DNA of 35,928 nucleotides, taken from positions 1-35,928 of IMG/VR virus record IMGVR_UViG_3300032323_001164. One strand, 5' to 3'. This DNA is from a virus. Positions 9,920 through 20,112 of this stretch are shown one piece after another; positions within the stretch are counted from its first letter, which is position 1; every line of letters starts with the position of its first letter. Position numbers and translations under genes: made by a program. Below the pieces are notes generated by a model. It saw only the letters and a list, made by a program, of their open reading frames with translations, made no database searches and was not told the origin of the DNA.

Positions 9920-12900
9920 TCACTGGAAATTAATACGTGAAAACCCATTGTCCTTGACTATCTCCAAACGGGTATCAACCATATCCTTTAGTACATCCAA
10001 GTGACTCACAATCCATACAAAGTCAAAATTGCTCTTCAAAAACGAGAACAAATTGGCCATGGCAGACAAGTGATCACTGTCAGCACATCCAAATCCTTCA
10101 TCAATAGCAATAAAGTTAGGTCGGGGTAGATTAGATACATTGATCAATGCAACTCTAATTGCCAACGAACTTACAAACTTCTCCAAACCACTAGCAAGTT
10201 CCAACGGCCACTTCTTATCCTCATACACAATGTAAGTCATAATGTTCTTACCATCAGTATGAAACGATACCGTGAACTCAACGATCTGATTCAGAATGTT
10301 ATTGACCTCTGCCTCAATACCAGGCAACGCTTTAGAGATGATTTGATACTGCAATCCATCTCTTGACACTGCATCGACATAATAAGTGTAGGCATTGTAA
10401 ATCTTCTCGGTCTCCTTTGCTTCCACGATCTTCTTTTCAATTTCAGACTTCTGATAGGTCCATGTATTGATCTTACTCTTCAAATCAACAATCTTTCCAT
10501 TGACGGTCTTAATGTTGAAATCGATGTTCTTGATATTAACTTTGAGACCGTCAATAGTTTGTTGAATCTTGACATTGGATTCAATTGCATCCTTAGCATC
10601 ATAGTATTCCTTAATCTTGCCATTGATGGTCTCCAGTGAGTTCTTATCCTTGACAATCGTGTTCTCCAACTGCAACTGACTATTTTCCGACGATGAAATG
10701 TTCTTATTCAACGTTGTCAGATCAGTGGACAACTTTCGATATTCCTGATATTGTCCCGCCACGGTCTCGACAGCAGACACCTTGTTTTTGACTTCTGTCA
10801 ACTTTGTAATCAAAGATCTAGCTTCAACCTTATCGTTTTCAAGATCTTCCTTGGTCTTAATTGCATCCTGAACAAACACATTATTGACACAGTATGTACA
10901 ATTTGGGTCGTACTTGTGAGCTTCAAGCTTCTTCAACTTGTCCAACTTGTTGTTGACAACCAACTTCTTACGTTCCAATTGACCTTCATATGAAGACACT
11001 TCCAACATCAACGTGTTGTATTGAGAATGCTTACTCTCAATGTCATCCGATTTAAACTGTTCAACTTTTTCATTCAAAGGTTTGACATCATTCTTCAACT
11101 TCTCAATGTTTACGATTTCGTTGTCGTATTTTGACTGATTATTGGAAATACGTTGTTCGGTGGTACGTCGTTGAGATTCCAACGAAACAATATCAGTTGT
11201 ACCAACATTGACCTTGATCAACTGTGAAGACGTTTCCACGACTTTATCGTTTTCAACATCACGTTGTTCGCCCAATTGTTTCAATTCAGTTTCGTTCACC
11301 CGAATAACCGATTCAGCGTTGGCGATGTTTGTAGTCAACGTTTCTAGTTCAACGGTATAATCCGTCTTTGCAAAGTTCTTCATTACTACAGCCCACTCAC
11401 GCATCTGATCATTAGCCAGACCATGTAGCTTATCAAAGATTGTAAGACCCATGAATTGTGCCAATAAATCTTTGCGTTCAGTTTGACCTAGATCAATGAA
11501 TGAACCGGTCTTACTGTTTTGAATGCTCAACACTGTGAGAATAAAGTCATCATATGTGCCAACATAATCTCTAATGAGATCGTTGGTATTACGACGGGCT
11601 TCTCCATTGAGTTCAATGACCTGACCATTTTCTTCCTTCCAAAACTTGACATCAACCTTGACACTTCCCTTCTTATCAGCGTTTCCAATACGTTCAATGA
11701 AGTAATTGACCTTATCAATTTCAAAGTTGAACTTACAACGAAACGACAACTTTTGGGTATTCATGACGTGAACTGCCTTGAAAGCACGATCACATTTATC
11801 AAAAATACAAAACGATAGAGCAGAAAGAATACTGGATTTTCCACTTGCGTTTGCAGCAAATAGACCCACGACATCTTTCATCTTACTGAAGTCAATGACG
11901 TTTCCTTCACCATAACTAAACATGTTATCAAACTCAAACCGCTTAGGCTTCCATCGAATATTCTTTGCGGTAAGATCCTTGACAATCAAATCATTCAGTT
12001 CCTTGTTGATCTTTTCCACCCCCAAAATAAGAGCATCTGGAATATTGGCATGTTTATCTTGAAGATATTCTGAGATCAACTTGTTTTGATACGTAATGTT
12101 TGAAAGTCCATGAACATTCAAATTGGGTACAACCGAATTAGTCAGACTAGACACCAAGTTATCCACCCGTAGATAGTTGATATCAACCAGTTCAGTATGT
12201 TTACGTACTTCGGCAATAATGGCCTTCATTTCAGAAGCCACGGTTTCTAGTGCCTTAACTCGTAAAGTGGTTTTCTTGGGAATGTCAGTCAGATCGGTAA
12301 GCAACCGTCCTTTATCAACTTCAACGGTAAAGTATCCATAGTCGTTTTTGACTTCAACGTGTTTGAACTTGAGGGTTTTGAGATCCCAATAAACAAAGCC
12401 ATGACCACGAAGCTCTTCACCGTGGTTCTGTTGAATCAATGATCCAGAATACACAACCACCGGTTTGCGTACATTGTTATCGTCAACACCATATGTTTGA
12501 AGAACCTGATGACGGTGAATATCACCAAGCAAAATGATTTGGTGACCATCAAACAGTTCATTCTTGGTACTGCTACTGACTTTATAGCCAATGTCAGTCA
12601 CAGCACTATCAATTGGTCCATGATACAGTCCAATACAATAAGTAGCGTTGTTAACATAGGTCTTGGGAATATTCGCAAACCGAATGTAGTTTTCAGGAGA
12701 GTGTTCATCAAATACTGAAAAGTTATTGAAGAGGATATCTCCAAGAAGATAGATTCCGGTATCCTTTAGATAAAACAGATTTGGATGTTTGAGTGCATTA
12801 ACGATTGGACTCAAACTGTCCATTCGATTTTTATTGGTCAAAGTAGCGTCATGATTACCCGCAGTAAGTATGGTTGGACGAAGATCCGCCAATCTCTTGA

Positions 12901-13129
12901 GAAATTGGGACGCAATTTCAACGCATTCAGGGCTAAGATCGCTTTTGTTATGAAAAACGTCTCCAACTACACAAACAGCAGTTGACGATGGTGTTCTGTC
13001 AATTGACTTGTATAGATTTTCAAACACCTCACGATATTCGGTATGACGCTTGGTCAACAGAATATGAATATCTGCAACGTGGAGAATGTTGGTAAAGTTT
13101 GATACTTCACATGTAAGTTTTGTGACCAT
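9920..13129 (-). CDS. Fused gp47-gp46 (SbcD-SbcC / Mre11-Rad50) recombination nuclease
   Basis: A 1069-aa single polypeptide joining two subunits that are separate in T4. Residues 1 to about 290 are an Mre11/SbcD/gp47-type metallophosphoesterase: VADIH (Asp20, His22), VVGDVFH (Asp57), GNHD (92-94), YHGP (His170) and GDIHRH (203-207). From about residue 395 begins a Rad50/SbcC/gp46 ATPase: RFEFDNMFSYGEG, Walker A-type AANASGKSS, and the Q-loop region near VLSIQNS. A long coiled coil follows, interrupted by the zinc-hook cysteines CTYC (about 744-747), then the ABC signature region ASGLEKFVSSLAIRVAL, Walker B FIAIDEGFG (about 1007-1015) and the His switch VSHLD. All catalytic elements are present. 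It should process DNA ends for recombination-dependent replication. An in-frame TTG at 13138 overlaps the primase stop; I prefer the ATG at 13129. No internal stop or frameshift is seen at the junction. Confidence 0.93.
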   Translation of the reverse strand: MVTKLTCEVSNFTNILHVADIHILLTKRHTEYREVFENLYKSIDRTPSSTAVCVVGDVFHNKSDLSPECVEIASQFLKRLADLRPTILTAGNHDATLTNKNRMDSLSPIVNALKHPNLFYLKDTGIYLLGDILFNNFSVFDEHSPENYIRFANIPKTYVNNATYCIGLYHGPIDSAVTDIGYKVSSSTKNELFDGHQIILLGDIHRHQVLQTYGVDDNNVRKPVVVYSGSLIQQNHGEELRGHGFVYWDLKTLKFKHVEVKNDYGYFTVEVDKGRLLTDLTDIPKKTTLRVKALETVASEMKAIIAEVRKHTELVDINYLRVDNLVSSLTNSVVPNLNVHGLSNITYQNKLISEYLQDKHANIPDALILGVEKINKELNDLIVKDLTAKNIRWKPKRFEFDNMFSYGEGNVIDFSKMKDVVGLFAANASGKSSILSALSFCIFDKCDRAFKAVHVMNTQKLSFRCKFNFEIDKVNYFIERIGNADKKGSVKVDVKFWKEENGQVIELNGEARRNTNDLIRDYVGTYDDFILTVLSIQNSKTGSFIDLGQTERKDLLAQFMGLTIFDKLHGLANDQMREWAVVMKNFAKTDYTVELETLTTNIANAESVIRVNETELKQLGEQRDVENDKVVETSSQLIKVNVGTTDIVSLESQRRTTEQRISNNQSKYDNEIVNIEKLKNDVKPLNEKVEQFKSDDIESKHSQYNTLMLEVSSYEGQLERKKLVVNNKLDKLKKLEAHKYDPNCTYCVNNVFVQDAIKTKEDLENDKVEARSLITKLTEVKNKVSAVETVAGQYQEYRKLSTDLTTLNKNISSSENSQLQLENTIVKDKNSLETINGKIKEYYDAKDAIESNVKIQQTIDGLKVNIKNIDFNIKTVNGKIVDLKSKINTWTYQKSEIEKKIVEAKETEKIYNAYTYYVDAVSRDGLQYQIISKALPGIEAEVNNILNQIVEFTVSFHTDGKNIMTYIVYEDKKWPLELASGLEKFVSSLAIRVALINVSNLPRPNFIAIDEGFGCADSDHLSAMANLFSFLKSNFDFVWIVSHLDVLKDMVDTRLEIVKDNGFSRINFQ

Positions 13130-13134
13130 AAAAT

Positions 13135-14097
13135 TCAAATAGATAATTTGTTACGAAACAAAGATTCAAAATCAAGAACCTGAGTATTGTTAATCAGTTC
13201 CCATGTTTTTGTGAATCCGATTTCAGACGGATCTTTTCCGTCAAGTTTAACCAAACGAGTTTCAATGTTGTTTTTCAACAAAAATTCACTGATTCGAATA
13301 GAATCAGCCATAGCATCATTATCCAAAACAATATTGACCTTCTTCACTGTATTACAGATCAAAGCAGATTTCAACTTATTTGAAAGCGTTTTTCCAAATA
13401 AAGGAATTGCGTTGTTTCTCACCGATATAGCATCAAACGCACCTTCAACCAACGTAATTGGCTGATGGTAATCCACAAACATTTCAAAGCCAATAATGTC
13501 TTTGGATCCAAAACTGTTGACGTATTTCATTTTGGCATCTTCAAATACGCTACGAGTTGAATAAAAATTCAAATGACCAGATGCATCATAAGATGGAATC
13601 AGCACTCTTCCATGAAACTGTCCACCTTCACAATATCCGATATTGTATCTCAAAACATCGTATTTTGTGATGTTACGACTTTTCAAATACTTCAAAGCGT
13701 GTCTTCCAGTCAACGTCAACTCTTCGTCATAAAACGAACGATATTCCTTTGGAAGCATCAATTGTTCAACGATATCAGCCTTCTTCTCAGAAAAGATTTC
13801 CAGAATGGCACTGATATCGTTTTGTGGAAGTTTTCTATAAGTCTCGGTATTTTTATAGATCTGACTGAGATAGTCCCCAGACAATCCCAACTTCTTGAAC
13901 AATGTCTTTAACGATGTACCTGATAATCCACACACCCAACAATGATACTTTCCAGTAACCGTGTTGATTTCCAGTTTGCGTTTGTAATGCTTACATACCG
14001 GACAAAAGTACACAGCATCAGTCCCCTTACGAATTTTGGCGGACTGTTTTAGTGCTTTATTTAAAATGGTGACAACTTCTGTCTGATACAACAGCAT
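13135..14097 (-). CDS. 61: DnaG-type DNA primase, T4 gp61-like
   Basis: A 320-aa primase that would make RNA primers for lagging-strand synthesis. The N-terminus has a CHC2-type zinc-binding domain with CPVC (Cys32, Cys35) and HCWVC (His52, Cys53, Cys56). The catalytic TOPRIM domain shows LVEGAFDAISV (Glu218), PLFGKTLS, and VNIVLDNDAMADS (Asp259, Asp261), followed by the DGKDPSEIG motif common in DnaG-like proteins. There is no fused helicase domain, so a separate replicative helicase is expected elsewhere. The length is close to that of T4 gp61 (about 340 aa). It lies between the RuvC-like resolvase and the gp47-gp46 fusion. The start codon sits in the loop of an 8-bp inverted repeat, and the gene's stop almost touches the next start. 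Confidence 0.92.
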   Translation of the reverse strand: MLLYQTEVVTILNKALKQSAKIRKGTDAVYFCPVCKHYKRKLEINTVTGKYHCWVCGLSGTSLKTLFKKLGLSGDYLSQIYKNTETYRKLPQNDISAILEIFSEKKADIVEQLMLPKEYRSFYDEELTLTGRHALKYLKSRNITKYDVLRYNIGYCEGGQFHGRVLIPSYDASGHLNFYSTRSVFEDAKMKYVNSFGSKDIIGFEMFVDYHQPITLVEGAFDAISVRNNAIPLFGKTLSNKLKSALICNTVKKVNIVLDNDAMADSIRISEFLLKNNIETRLVKLDGKDPSEIGFTKTWELINNTQVLDFESLFRNKLSI

Positions 14098-14136: not shown

Positions 14137-14640
14137 TTATGCTTTAAATAAAGCACAGACCATGGCATCATACATGTCACCGTTTCGATCATCCCAACTA
14201 CCTTTTTTCTTTTTCTGATCAAATTTGGTCACATCAACGAAGTTCACAATGTTGGCTTTAACAAATTCCTTGGCCTTCATGCCCTTGACTCTTGCTTTTC
14301 CAAACAACTGTTTTCTCATGGTGTTGACGTTACACAAGTTAACCTTCAACTCGGTTTCTTCAGAAACGATATACTCAAAAACAGCATTGAATCTTGCCAA
14401 CTTGATGATAACTTGTTGACTGGTTCTACCTCCAGCAAATCCACTCAAGGCTGCCTCAAGATTAATTTCGGCAACGTTTTTGAGTAACGGTGTAGTTTTA
14501 AGATAGTCTAAAACAAAAAGAGACTTCTCTTTGGAAGTCTCTAAATGTGATATGTCTAAAAATCCAGCACTAACAATCTTACCGTCATCTGAAAATGCCC
14601 ATCCAACGGTAGATGTACTAGCATCCAATCCTAATGTCAT
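14137..14640 (-). CDS. RuvC-like Holliday junction resolvase
   Basis: A 167-aa RNase H-fold nuclease. The first strand holds MTLGLDASTSTVGWAF with the catalytic Asp6, the second acidic residue is Glu62 in INLEAALSGFAGG, and the C-terminal acidic cluster is NGDMYDAMVCAL (Asp155, Asp158). The GR-T-QQ segment after Glu62 and the length match RuvC-type resolvases. It would resolve branched DNA before packaging, the job done in T4 by the unrelated endonuclease VII (gp49). It precedes the primase and gp47-gp46 fusion and so completes a recombination cassette. The ATG at 14640 has an A/T-rich leader (AATAAATAAGTT) and no Shine-Dalgarno sequence. A related non-resolvase RNase H-fold role cannot be excluded. 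Confidence 0.85.
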   Translation of the reverse strand: MTLGLDASTSTVGWAFSDDGKIVSAGFLDISHLETSKEKSLFVLDYLKTTPLLKNVAEINLEAALSGFAGGRTSQQVIIKLARFNAVFEYIVSEETELKVNLCNVNTMRKQLFGKARVKGMKAKEFVKANIVNFVDVTKFDQKKKKGSWDDRNGDMYDAMVCALFKA

Positions 14641-14969: not shown

Positions 14970-17312
14970 TTATACGTCCCATTTAACCAAAAAATTTAAC
15001 GGATACTCTCCGCTGTTTTTGATTGGAGACGACAACTTAGCTACTGCCACCAAATCGGAACCGCTATATAACCCAATTGTAGTAATATAGGGTGCCAAGT
15101 ATGAGCCAGTGATATCAAGTGAAGCACTTTCTTGATAATCCAAGAATGTAGATTTGATAGTAGGTATTCCATTTGTATCAGGATATTTTGATGTCTTTGA
15201 TGTTATATATGAAACAACATCTGAAAGATTCACTCTTGTTGAAAATGGGTTGATTAAATTATTGTAATTTTCAATCTTCAATTCTCCAATGAAGAACTTC
15301 CACAATATCTTGGCATCATTAATAGTGACTTTACCATCACCATCAAAATCAAATTCCATTTCTTTTTGTACAAGAGTTGATTGATAACGTGAATACTGTT
15401 GTTTTAGTGTATACTGACCATACTCATAGAAGGTCGTATAATATTCAAACAGACTTCGTTCAGTTGCGTTTTCAATAACATATTCATCCCAAAATGTAGA
15501 GTCAGCAGCAAAATTAGGACTACCGGGAGTATTAACATCAACGATATACAACAAAATCAAATTCAAATCTCTGAAATCAAATTGTCCGTTGCCAAACAAA
15601 TCAAATGAAGGGCGTGAACTGATCAACGAGGTTGGGTTTGTTGGCACATTGAACTCTCCGGACTCAACAACACAAATCACTGACTTTTCATTCAATGTGT
15701 ATTTGCTCTTATACGTCAAATCATATTGATATTCACCAGTGTCTCTGGTTTCAAATATGTTCTCAAATTGAGATCCAGTATTTGATAAAACAATATCACC
15801 GTTCTTGTAAAATACGTTTCCTACATGATAGTCGGTTCTCAATGAACTCAAGGTTGAAATGTATGCGTGACCTCTCATGTTCAATAGATCAGACTGAGCA
15901 ACAGACGGACTAACTACAAACGTGTTACTCGACGTAAAATCGTTGATAATGTACGGCGATCCAATTGCAATTGATCTGTCACTAATTGCAACATCATATC
16001 CATATGACATGTACGGATATCCTATTGCCTTCTTTTTGTAATCGTATGTTATTGACGTGACGGTTGAACCTGTCTTTTCAAACAAAATGTATTGTCCGTT
16101 TATAACGTTAGTATCATCATATGATTGACTGATAGAACTTGAAACCGTGGCTCTTGTTGCCAATGCGTTACTTGACGAAATACATCCAACAATAATTTTG
16201 TCATTGAATACGTCAACTGAACAACCCAATCGATTTGATTTGATCGTATACTGATCACCAATATACTTCATGATCAAATCCCAATAAACTTGTTCACCGC
16301 CAGCATAAATTCCACTTGCGTTTGCGGTATTGACTGGACAATCTTTACGATTGTAGATGTATGCTGCTCCTCTATTATATTGAGTATTTGATCCACTATA
16401 TTCGTAATAACTTGCATCATATGGTGCACCTATTACAATTGTGTTTCCGTTGATTTGAATATCATTACCAAATTGGTCATATGAATTTTTTACATATCCA
16501 TATGAGTTGATCGAATCAAATGGAACATACTGAGAACCAGTGATTGAAGAAAAGGTATGCGTCAATGACCATCCACCAGAAGCACTTTCAAACAAGTAGA
16601 CGTTTGGATTTGCTAACGATGAAGTTTCAGAAATCAAAATAGCATTGCTTCCAGACTTGTCGATTCGAACCAATGATCCAAAGTTATTTCCACTTGTTAC
16701 AGCAGAAATCGTAGATACTGGAGATCCCGAGATTGTGATTCCACTAGAGCCTGTAGTGTAACTATAAACATACACCGTACCATTACCATTACGATTTGCA
16801 CCAATAACGATATATTTATTGTTTATAGAAACCGTGTGACCAAATGAATTATTTGTAGTTCCAATTGGCGAATTGATTTTTCTAGCAGAAATCAATGATG
16901 AAACAAGAGTAGAAGAATTTGATGATGTAGGATTCAATACGTATACATCCACAATACTAGCATGAGTATATGGCGTACCAAAATATGATCCTGTAAAATA
17001 TTCATCACCCACAACAAAAATGTTTTCATACAAATCAAAAGATTGACCATAACCATCTTTTGTAATGGTAGTACCACCCGTTCCACTTGATCCAGCACTA
17101 CCTCCGGTACCACTTGTACCATATGCAAAAACAGATCGGGATGTGCCGTAGTAAGCATACGATCCTTTTGATACGTCAAACCTATACAAATCGATACTTC
17201 CTGTGCCAGCTTGAGATGCATACTGTGGATTTGGGTTTCCAACAGCAACAAACTTGCCGTAGGCTTCAACCTTAGATCCATACATTGTTACTGGTCCAAC
17301 TGTTCCATTCAT
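14970..17312 (-). CDS. Virion protein with FG-GAP-type beta-propeller and dockerin-like repeats
   Basis: A 780-aa protein. Residues 1 to about 490 are repeated blade-like units of the form F-G-x-x-V-x-I-x-x-x-x-I-V-I-G-A/S-P, for example FGHTVSINNKYIVIGANRNG, FGNDIQINGNTIVIGAPYD, LGCSVDVFNDKIIVGC and YGYDVAISDRSIAIGSPYI. These are typical of FG-GAP/integrin-alpha-like propellers. A phage structural segment follows (VGNVFYKNGDIVLSN...). Then come two dockerin-like calcium loops: DLFGNGQFDFRDLNLILLYI (571-590) and FDFDGDGKVTINDAKILWKF (654-673), the second canonical. The C-terminus (about 742-780; IGLYSGSDLVAVAKLSSPIK) matches the end of the 412-aa protein at 20117-21355. The likely role is a tail-tip adhesin or fibre; binding partner unknown. 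The start follows the LRR gene's stop by 4 nt. Confidence 0.85.
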   Translation of the reverse strand: MNGTVGPVTMYGSKVEAYGKFVAVGNPNPQYASQAGTGSIDLYRFDVSKGSYAYYGTSRSVFAYGTSGTGGSAGSSGTGGTTITKDGYGQSFDLYENIFVVGDEYFTGSYFGTPYTHASIVDVYVLNPTSSNSSTLVSSLISARKINSPIGTTNNSFGHTVSINNKYIVIGANRNGNGTVYVYSYTTGSSGITISGSPVSTISAVTSGNNFGSLVRIDKSGSNAILISETSSLANPNVYLFESASGGWSLTHTFSSITGSQYVPFDSINSYGYVKNSYDQFGNDIQINGNTIVIGAPYDASYYEYSGSNTQYNRGAAYIYNRKDCPVNTANASGIYAGGEQVYWDLIMKYIGDQYTIKSNRLGCSVDVFNDKIIVGCISSSNALATRATVSSSISQSYDDTNVINGQYILFEKTGSTVTSITYDYKKKAIGYPYMSYGYDVAISDRSIAIGSPYIINDFTSSNTFVVSPSVAQSDLLNMRGHAYISTLSSLRTDYHVGNVFYKNGDIVLSNTGSQFENIFETRDTGEYQYDLTYKSKYTLNEKSVICVVESGEFNVPTNPTSLISSRPSFDLFGNGQFDFRDLNLILLYIVDVNTPGSPNFAADSTFWDEYVIENATERSLFEYYTTFYEYGQYTLKQQYSRYQSTLVQKEMEFDFDGDGKVTINDAKILWKFFIGELKIENYNNLINPFSTRVNLSDVVSYITSKTSKYPDTNGIPTIKSTFLDYQESASLDITGSYLAPYITTIGLYSGSDLVAVAKLSSPIKNSGEYPLNFLVKWDV

Positions 17313-17316
17313 AAAA

Positions 17317-20112
17317 TTAGTTTGTAGTTACCGTCCAACCTTTAGATAACAAATTGTTCTTGGCTGTAATTCCTGCACCGGTAGGAGCAGCATTTGTTCC
17401 ACCCTGCAATTGAACTTGTCCACCTGAAATTCCATTAGCATCCAATTTAGTCAAAATACTATTGACTTCAGCAGCAGTTAACGCACATTGATATCCATAA
17501 ACCGTTTTCAATTGAGGTACACTTGCTGGTAAATTAAATGTAGTAATCAATGAACATTTGGTTATGACTACCGATTTCAACTTAGTACATGTGCTTAAAT
17601 TGACAGAGGGAATATTGGTGTCACTGTCACCACATGAGAATGTCTCCAAATCAACAAATGGGGTACAATTAATTGGAACTGTAATTCCACATTGTGCCAT
17701 TGCTAAGTCTTTCAACTTGGTCAAACCACTAAACCCTGTGGGTATACCAACACTAGTATTGGCATACATATAAAGGAATATCAACTTCGTGTTGTTAGTA
17801 ACGTTCAATGATGTAAGTGAATTTCCATTGACAGCTAAAGATTGTAACTCTGTATTGTTACTTGTGTTAATTGATGATAAACCGTTATCTTGACAATACA
17901 ATGCAGTCAACTTCGTATTGTTAGTGACATCCAACGATGCCATGTTTGGATTTCCACTAACCTGTAAAAATCGTAGTTCTGTTAGAGCACTAATATTAAA
18001 TGGTGTCAGTCCAGTTCCTCGTAAATCACAATTGAACATGATCAACATGTACATATTCGTACAATCAGACAATCCAGTTATTGAAGTTAATCCACTATTG
18101 TCATAAGCAGACAACCAATTCAATCCAGTATTTCCAGTTACATTAATTGTAGTGAGTGCTCCATTGCTACTGTTGAGCCATAAATTAGTCAATGTAGGTT
18201 TTCCATTGATATTAAATGTGCCTGACAAATTACAATTTGTCGCAGCCAATGTAGACAAACTAGTCAAGTCGGAAACGTTAATTGAAGACAATGAAGAATT
18301 GTTGTTCAACGTTAGGACTAACAAGCCCGATATTCCAATACCACTTATGCTCGATAGATTTTGGTTTGATAGATCAAGAGTTTTTAAAGCAGTATAATAG
18401 TTTGTATTTGATATTGTGGTTATAGGATTGGTTGCACTTGTTACTTCAATTGTCTTGATGTTAGTAGGATCAATAATTGATTTGAAACTTGCCAACGTAA
18501 TATTGTCATAAAAAGTCACACCCGTCAAACCTCTAGTTCCATCTCCCCAGTTCATCAATTGCGTTGATGGACTGTAATCTAATCTGTCTGCTGGATCATA
18601 TGCAGTAACCGTAGTTGTAGCAGGAGTAGATGACCCCGCCACGTTTGTAGCTGTCAATGAAACTGTATAGGTTCCTTTAGTTGAATACGTGTTTGGCGAT
18701 GGGTTTTTACTTGTACTTGTGTTTGTATCTCCAAAGTTCCATGCCCAACTATATGGGTTGAATACAGCATTCTCCGATGTTGTATTCGTGAATGCAACTG
18801 AAAGGGGAATGTCTCCTACGGACGGTGTTAATGTAAACGAAGCTACGGGTACAATACCCGAAGAAACCGTGATGATATTTGTTTTAATTTCAGAATCACT
18901 TCCTCCCACATTTGTTGCTGTAAGGGTTATGGTATATGTTCCAGGCGTTGAATATATGTGCGTTGGATTTTCGGATGTACTAGTATTGGTATCACCAAAG
19001 TTCCACAAGTACGTAATTGGTCCAACTCCAGTAGTCTTGTTCGTGAAGTTAATCGTGGTGATGGAAGCGTAGACACCAGTGAGAGGACTTAGTTCAAAAT
19101 CAGCAACAGGAACAGGAACAACAAGTGCTGTAATGTAAGATGGTATGGTCAATGTAGTTGATCCACCTGCGTTAGTTGCTACCAATGTTACATCATAGAT
19201 TCCGGCTGATGTATAAATATGACTTGGATTTTCAGATGCGCTTCCCGACAAATCTCCGAATGACCACAAATAAGAAGATGCCCCAGTCGTGTTGTTGGTG
19301 AATGACACCGTGAGTGGAATATATCCACTTAGAGGAGTTCCAGTGAAATTTACTATTGGAAGAGGAATTACAGCGTTAGCTGTTATGTAGTTGGTTCTGG
19401 TTTTTGTTTTTGTACCACCGAATCCGCTTGCAGTCAACGAAATTGTATATATGCCGGGATTAATATAAACGTGACTAAAAGCAGAAGATGAAACTGAAGT
19501 AGTTCCGTCTCCCAGATCCCACAAGTATTCAGTAACATTGCCTGATACGATAGGACTTACTGTCGTGGCAAGTGGAGCAAACCCAGACAAAGGTGATGCT
19601 GTGAAATCCACTGTTGGAGCAGAATATAAACTTGACGTTGTTTCGGTATAGTCTATAAAATGCGTGCCATCGACGTACAAGTTGCCGTATGTATCATCAT
19701 AAATGATATAATCCTTATCCTTGGAACGATCAACTAATACAACAGAATCACGTAGTATTGATTCACCAAAATATATTCTTGGTAAAGTAATTCTAACGCA
19801 ACTATTCTGTAGTATTTTTACAACTTTGTCAGTATCAGTAGTTTCTAATCCAAATGATTGTGCAATGTTTGGATTGTAATACGCATTTTTTACTAACTGA
19901 TAAACAAGTCGTTTATATGTTCCATTTGAATTTTGTGTATCGGCAACAAACCCATACTGAGCTGCCGATGCAGAATCAAAAAAGTTATAACTACTACTGA
20001 CAAAAAAACCTTCTTCCACCGTTTGGACCGAACTGGAAGCACTTAGTGTCCATGATTTGTTCGAACTAAAAGGTGTATTGAAAATCTCATTAGACTGTAT
20101 AGACTTTATCAT
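17317..20112 (-). CDS. Tail adhesin with four PKD domains and leucine-rich repeats
   Basis: A 931-aa putative receptor-binding protein. Residues 1-165 are a putative virion-attachment region (GNLYVDGTHFIDYTE near its end). Four PKD domains follow at about 166-245, 252-330, 335-416 and 422-505, each with the PKD core YLW-x-F/L-GD and an IYT-x-x-L-TA strand. From about 510 to 860 are leucine-rich repeats with a 21-residue period such as SLDVTNNTKLTALYCQDNGL, of the kind common in Bacteroidota surface proteins. The last 50 residues (AAEVNSILTKLDANG...LLSKGWTVTTN) resemble the tail that closes many such proteins. No signal peptide is present, which fits a cytoplasmically assembled virion protein rather than a secreted one. 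The gene is 4 nt from both neighbours. Receptor binding is inferred from domains and context. Confidence 0.87.
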   Translation of the reverse strand: MIKSIQSNEIFNTPFSSNKSWTLSASSSVQTVEEGFFVSSSYNFFDSASAAQYGFVADTQNSNGTYKRLVYQLVKNAYYNPNIAQSFGLETTDTDKVVKILQNSCVRITLPRIYFGESILRDSVVLVDRSKDKDYIIYDDTYGNLYVDGTHFIDYTETTSSLYSAPTVDFTASPLSGFAPLATTVSPIVSGNVTEYLWDLGDGTTSVSSSAFSHVYINPGIYTISLTASGFGGTKTKTRTNYITANAVIPLPIVNFTGTPLSGYIPLTVSFTNNTTGASSYLWSFGDLSGSASENPSHIYTSAGIYDVTLVATNAGGSTTLTIPSYITALVVPVPVADFELSPLTGVYASITTINFTNKTTGVGPITYLWNFGDTNTSTSENPTHIYSTPGTYTITLTATNVGGSDSEIKTNIITVSSGIVPVASFTLTPSVGDIPLSVAFTNTTSENAVFNPYSWAWNFGDTNTSTSKNPSPNTYSTKGTYTVSLTATNVAGSSTPATTTVTAYDPADRLDYSPSTQLMNWGDGTRGLTGVTFYDNITLASFKSIIDPTNIKTIEVTSATNPITTISNTNYYTALKTLDLSNQNLSSISGIGISGLLVLTLNNNSSLSSINVSDLTSLSTLAATNCNLSGTFNINGKPTLTNLWLNSSNGALTTINVTGNTGLNWLSAYDNSGLTSITGLSDCTNMYMLIMFNCDLRGTGLTPFNISALTELRFLQVSGNPNMASLDVTNNTKLTALYCQDNGLSSINTSNNTELQSLAVNGNSLTSLNVTNNTKLIFLYMYANTSVGIPTGFSGLTKLKDLAMAQCGITVPINCTPFVDLETFSCGDSDTNIPSVNLSTCTKLKSVVITKCSLITTFNLPASVPQLKTVYGYQCALTAAEVNSILTKLDANGISGGQVQLQGGTNAAPTGAGITAKNNLLSKGWTVTTN
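17781..17928 (-). repeat. Leucine-rich-repeat coding direct repeats
   Basis: The 22-nt stretch starting TCAACTTCGT occurs at 17781-17802 and again at 17907-17928, identical at 20 of 22 positions, 126 nt apart, which is two 21-codon repeat units. A weaker copy lies between them near 17848. They encode the conserved NVTNNTKL core of the leucine-rich repeats. Near-identical in-frame repeats could allow gain or loss of whole units by recombination, changing adhesin length without a frameshift. Confidence 0.7.

Follow-up and report, generated by a model that had tools for sequence, protein, structure and literature searches.

A myovirus-type tailed phage gene joining Mre11 (SbcD) and Rad50 (SbcC) halves in a single protein, a further example of a fusion common in aquatic phages

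A single open frame on the minus strand of the IMG/VR virus record IMGVR_UViG_3300032323_001164 (positions 9920-13129; 1069 aa plus stop) joins the Mre11 (SbcD) and Rad50 (SbcC) halves of the T4 gp47-gp46 families in one protein. The window, by which is meant the whole stretch of 35,928 nucleotides analyzed here, is a 36-kb virus fragment with myovirus-type terminase large subunit, portal and baseplate wedge genes, and the fused gene very probably provides a tailed phage of this type with a single-chain Mre11-Rad50 (SbcD-SbcC, T4 gp47-gp46-like) complex. The first-pass annotation had placed both enzymes in one 1069-aa frame, with no mention of the strand, and this is borne out: there are no internal stops whether the frame is read from its ATG (9920-13129, 1069 aa) or from an alternative TTG (9920-13138, 1072 aa), and over these positions the opposite (plus) strand carries many. 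The protein matches both SbcD (phrog_100, residues 8-308, E 1.6e-20) and SbcC (phrog_77, residues 295-1070, E 7e-47) in PHROG, as well as Pfam Metallophos (residues 17-208, E 5e-9) and, below the Pfam cut-off, SMC_N (residues 400-515); solved Rad50/SbcC and Mre11/SbcD chains were also recovered with it in a profile search. The Mre11-like half is N-terminal to the Rad50-like half, as in fusions of the Mimivirus R555 kind. The architecture of the protein, the conservation of its motifs, purifying selection across its junction, its wide distribution and its primase neighbor are all directly observed. All features of the window given below lie on the minus strand.

The nuclease half contains the five motifs of SbcD/Mre11, present and conserved, with GDIH instead of GHxH in the last. 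In motif I (D20-I-H22, positions 13064-13072), neither D20 nor H22 varies in alignments A1/A2, and across 116 distinct homologues the motif reads DxH in 111 and DIQ in 5. The Gly, Asp and His of motif II (G56-D-V-F-H60, 12950-12964) are likewise invariant in A1/A2, and motif III (G91-N-H-D94, 12848-12859), motif IV (H170-G171, 12617-12622) and motif V (G202-D-I-H205, 12515-12526) are the same in 116 of 116. Among 26 aligned relatives the invariant residues on the nuclease side are D20, H22, D57, H60, N92, H93, H170, D203 and H205. Asp thus stands in motif V in place of the His of cellular Mre11 and T4 gp47 (GHFH), a change also found in Tenacibaculum phage pT24, the uncultured megaphage LR756501 and the split gp47 of Vibrio phage vB_ValS_X1.

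The second half has the full SbcC/Rad50 arrangement, in which Walker A, signature, Walker B and His switch are placed around a coiled coil with a CxxC hook. The P-loop (A425-A-N-A-S-G-K-S-S433, 11831-11857) has A425, N427, G430, K431 and S432 invariant; it is typically AxNASGKSS or AxNAAGKSS (variants APNASGKSS, AANASGKSS and others), with Ala at both of the usual Gly positions of GxNGxGKS. Two coiled-coil arms, seen as long helices in the structure model (residues ~563-737, 10919-11443, and ~751-949, 10283-10879), flank the zinc hook C744-T-Y-C747 (10889-10900), of which both Cys are invariant. These are followed by the ABC signature L978-A-S-G-L-E-K984 (10178-10198; S980, G981 and E983 invariant), Walker B F1006-I-A-I-D-E1011 (10097-10114; D1010 and E1011 invariant) and the invariant His switch H1043 (10001-10003). 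The catalytic and ATPase-side residues are invariant across the 26 aligned relatives and nearly so in the 116. The residue numbers first proposed for the nuclease motifs, the P-loop (425-433), the zinc hook (C744-C747) and the His switch (H1043) were correct; the accompanying remark that every motif is visible stands as to their presence and conservation, but they are not all canonical, motif V being GDIH and the P-loop AxNASGKS.

These two departures weigh somewhat against the single-chain Mre11-Rad50 reading, in that they leave the exact chemistry of the enzyme putative. They also give some substance to the idea that the protein is a catalytically reduced tether, mainly bridging DNA ends, in which motif V and the P-loop have been altered (Asp for the motif V His in 116 of 116; Ala for the usual Gly in the P-loop). 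This is nevertheless improbable, as D20, D57, N92, H93, H170, H205, K431, D1010, E1011 and all other catalytic residues are invariant, and the same His-to-Asp change occurs in Mimivirus R555 (PMC3175470). Because the remaining catalytic residues are invariant, it can be argued that catalysis has been retained in the single-chain Mre11-Rad50 protein.

Between the two halves, the first-pass annotation proposed a linker of about 100 residues. A linker does exist, but it comprises only ~11 residues (380-390, 11960-11992), which have no predicted secondary structure and lie between a helix (365-379) and a strand (391-401). The remainder (265-379) is predicted to be the folded C-terminal part of Mre11, and it is this prediction that reduces the true linker to ~11 residues: a putative Mre11 capping domain (residues 265-321, 12167-12337; strand-strand-helix-strand in AlphaFold2, moderate confidence) is followed by a putative Rad50-binding helix-loop-helix (residues 345-379, 11993-12097; helices 345-359 and 365-379, block pLDDT ~82-91), in which Q348, N349, L351, N375 and N379 are invariant in the 26 aligned relatives. 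The AlphaFold2 monomer model as a whole is of moderate quality (pLDDT 71, pTM 0.38), with pLDDT below 50 at the P-loop region. With this moderate-confidence model, Foldseek aligned ~420 columns to full-length Thermotoga Mre11, and the PDB matches comprise full-length Thermotoga Mre11 from Mre11:Rad50 complexes (3qg5_C, 3tho_B) and several Rad50 heads. In the Thermotoga complex, 9-12 residues were estimated to be enough to span the ~28 Å from the Mre11 C-terminus to the Rad50 N-terminus (PMC3175470), a gap that the ~11-residue linker fits.

Dimer assembly, activity and a phage function in recombination-dependent replication can be proposed from what is known of the two families. The N-terminal half would be a metal-dependent phosphodiesterase nuclease, followed by the capping domain and then by the helix-loop-helix, which would dock on the root of the Rad50 coiled coil; the short linker would lead into the Rad50 ATPase head, from which two coiled-coil arms would extend to the CxxC zinc hook. 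Two chains may pair through their ATPase heads and hook, so that an M2R2 assembly would result from a single gene, and ATP binding and hydrolysis would control whether DNA ends can reach the nuclease. The role in the phage would most likely be that of gp46/gp47, namely resection and tethering of DNA ends for recombination-dependent replication, and may further include helping host DNA degradation.

Directly upstream of the fused gene lies a DnaG-type primase (13135-14097; phrog_47, E 6e-38), whose stop codon overlaps the TTG from which the fused frame could alternatively begin. A primase is found upstream of the fusion in 77 of 80 related IMG/VR loci (L006-L085), and the other three (L009, L016, L043) are cut at a contig end. 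Beyond it is a putative RuvC-like Holliday-junction resolvase (14137-14640; phrog_827, E 5e-4, a weak match), which is kept in most related loci. In 11 related IMG/VR contigs (103-304 kb, possibly incomplete), no separate SbcC match was found outside the fused frame; the full-length SbcD match in each lies within that frame, and the only metallophosphoesterase matches elsewhere, in two of the contigs, are short and partial. As no SbcC match occurs outside it, the fusion appears, as judged from these sequences, to be the only gp46/gp47 of these phages. The window also encodes (14970-20112) two large proteins, one of 780 aa with FG-GAP repeats and one of 931 aa with PKD and leucine-rich repeats, which sit between the replication and structural genes, are of variable conservation in relatives and have a possible role in adhesion or receptor binding.

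This setting also bears on the proposal that the protein is an SMC-nuclease of the Lamassu or Wadjet type, serving in defense or in the sensing of nucleic acids, and not an enzyme of replication or recombination. In its favor, PADLOC gives weak hits to LmuB and JetC, and the SMC heads of Lamassu and Jet are among the Foldseek matches. What is matched, however, is the head and coil that SMC and Rad50 proteins have in common; SbcC and SbcD are matched far more strongly, the same chain includes an Mre11 half, and the adjacent genes encode a primase and a putative resolvase, so that a defense role has little probability, slightly less than that of a reduced tether.

In line with the single-chain Mre11-Rad50 reading, the frame is intact in independent sequences. 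In three contigs from other metagenomes (L006, L007, L008), genes 97-98% identical to that of the window have an open frame, and one frame spans both halves in 158 of 168 fetched loci, yielding 116 distinct full-length proteins, nearly all of 1032-1099 aa; these loci include some contigs fetched twice and are the best 80 to a fused query per search, and therefore allow no estimate of the frequency of split forms. The 10 exceptions are contig ends, L080 (= L110), L081 (= L116), a locus with an insert (L002, described below) and the distant phage pT24, the gene of which is itself a single frame although it was counted here. L080 and L081 lose the fused frame close to the C-terminal ATPase or within the coiled coil, through either a real break or an assembly error. 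Pairwise dN/dS is 0.07-0.10 at residues 290-395 and ~0.1 over residues 265-380, from which it follows that purifying selection acts on the junction and that it is translated; together with the open frames of L006, L007 and L008, this answers the concern about a stop or frameshift at residues 290-395. Since gp47 and gp46 adjoin in many phages, one indel could in principle merge them, but the open frames on three further, independent contigs, the 116 distinct full-length proteins and the low dN/dS across the junction in practice refute an assembly or sequencing artefact in which a lost stop or frameshift fused two adjacent genes.

One search of IMG/VR for relatives of the fused gene returned 161 stretches and a profile-guided search at least 585. 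In the isolate phage collection, full-length relatives of more than 30% identity are limited to Microcystis phage Mel-JY01 and an uncultured 484-kb phage, and there are no close relatives at the DNA level among isolated phages. Plasmids gave only five matches, all of them partial and to the Rad50 half. The only candidate cellular relatives are three metagenome-assembled contigs (L166, L167, L168); they carry the fusion, were binned as archaeal (Nitrosopelagicus) or bacterial genomes, and may be phage contigs binned with their hosts. Among viruses, the fold is matched best by full-length repair exonucleases, likewise single-chain, of Tupanvirus, Yasminevirus, Harvfovirus, Catovirus and Tenacibaculum phages. 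In a quick tree of fused and split forms, all fused sequences grouped together (support 76), but the split sequences and two fused ones lie on very long branches, which would fit either a single fusion or several.

Two relatives carry insertions in the nuclease half. In a 303-kb phage contig (IMGVR_UViG_3300037042_006844; L084:5962-10125, = L118), an in-frame insert of ~325 aa immediately follows GNHD, begins CYSEDHELLT, ends GN before Cys and matches Pfam Intein_splicing (E 1.5e-7, just under the cut-off), so that the Mre11 active site probably harbors an intein. In a 484-kb phage (LR756508.1; L002:4941-9166), the fused gene is interrupted immediately behind motif V (GDIH) by an ORF of 305 aa, itself weakly matching a TnsA-like nuclease, and is left as frames of 243 and 861 aa; a homing-endonuclease-type insertion, an intron and a true split are the candidate explanations. 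A search of both loci for introns gave no Rfam match at the gathering threshold.

The novelty implied for the fusion by the first-pass annotation does not hold. Mre11/Rad50 fusions of the same order were published in 2011 for Mimivirus, plasmids, bacteria, eukaryotes and a phage, Bacillus phage 0305phi8-36 (Yoshida, Claverie and Ogata, 2011; PMC3175470), and the abundant R555-like genes of aquatic viromes, with primase genes on the same scaffolds, were argued there to be phage genes. Novelty had been made to depend on the scarcity of described phage fusions, and these are many (116 distinct homologues, at least 585 viral stretches and WWT39521.1 of Mel-JY01); the window gene is a sound further example of the fusions described in 2011, which are common in aquatic phages. 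Like the window protein, R555 has by published description the Mre11 half first and the Rad50 half second in a single chain; both have His at the third place of motif II and Asp for His206 in motif V, and phage primases occur on R555-like scaffolds from aquatic metagenomes (PMC3175470), as in the window. R555 differs in being a giant-virus protein of 1351 aa, compared with 1069 aa for the window protein, which comes from a tailed phage whose structural genes are of myovirus type, and the full-length giant-virus matches in BFVD share only ~16-24% identity with the window protein (Tupanvirus, 24%).

Another close counterpart is WWT39521.1 of Microcystis phage Mel-JY01 (PP395634), annotated only as 'AAA domain containing protein', which shares 38% identity over 99% of the length and is likewise a single frame with a primase upstream, although there the primase is separated from the fusion by a small gene and the flanking genes are partly different. 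The 'DNA repair' protein of Tenacibaculum phage pT24 (1310 aa) and a 1202-aa protein of the uncultured megaphage LR756501 are also single-chain Metallophos and Rad50-like proteins with GDIH, but they are very distant (~25% identity over parts) and lie on long branches apart from the window clade. The gp47 and gp46 pairs of T4, cyanophages, Herelleviridae and T5-like phages belong to the same families (phrog_100, phrog_77) and most likely perform the same task, but are encoded by two separate genes, between which small genes often intervene. Compared with T4 gp46 (560 aa, hook at 288), the Rad50 half of the window protein is longer (~680 aa), and the T4 motif V (GHFH) and P-loop (GRNGGGKST) correspond to GDIH and AANASGKSS.

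The full-length genes and neighborhoods assembled here support the inference drawn in 2011 from short sequences, that many aquatic R555-like fusions are genes of tailed phages. As a single chain with a fixed 1:1 stoichiometry, the protein could prove a practical construct for biochemical work on Mre11-Rad50. It is further conceivable, if rather doubtful, that the fused clade is an old and self-contained single-chain MR lineage, with an altered metal site and P-loop, in which nuclease and ATPase are coupled unlike those of the two-subunit enzymes; if so, these phages would offer a compact one-gene model of Mre11-Rad50.
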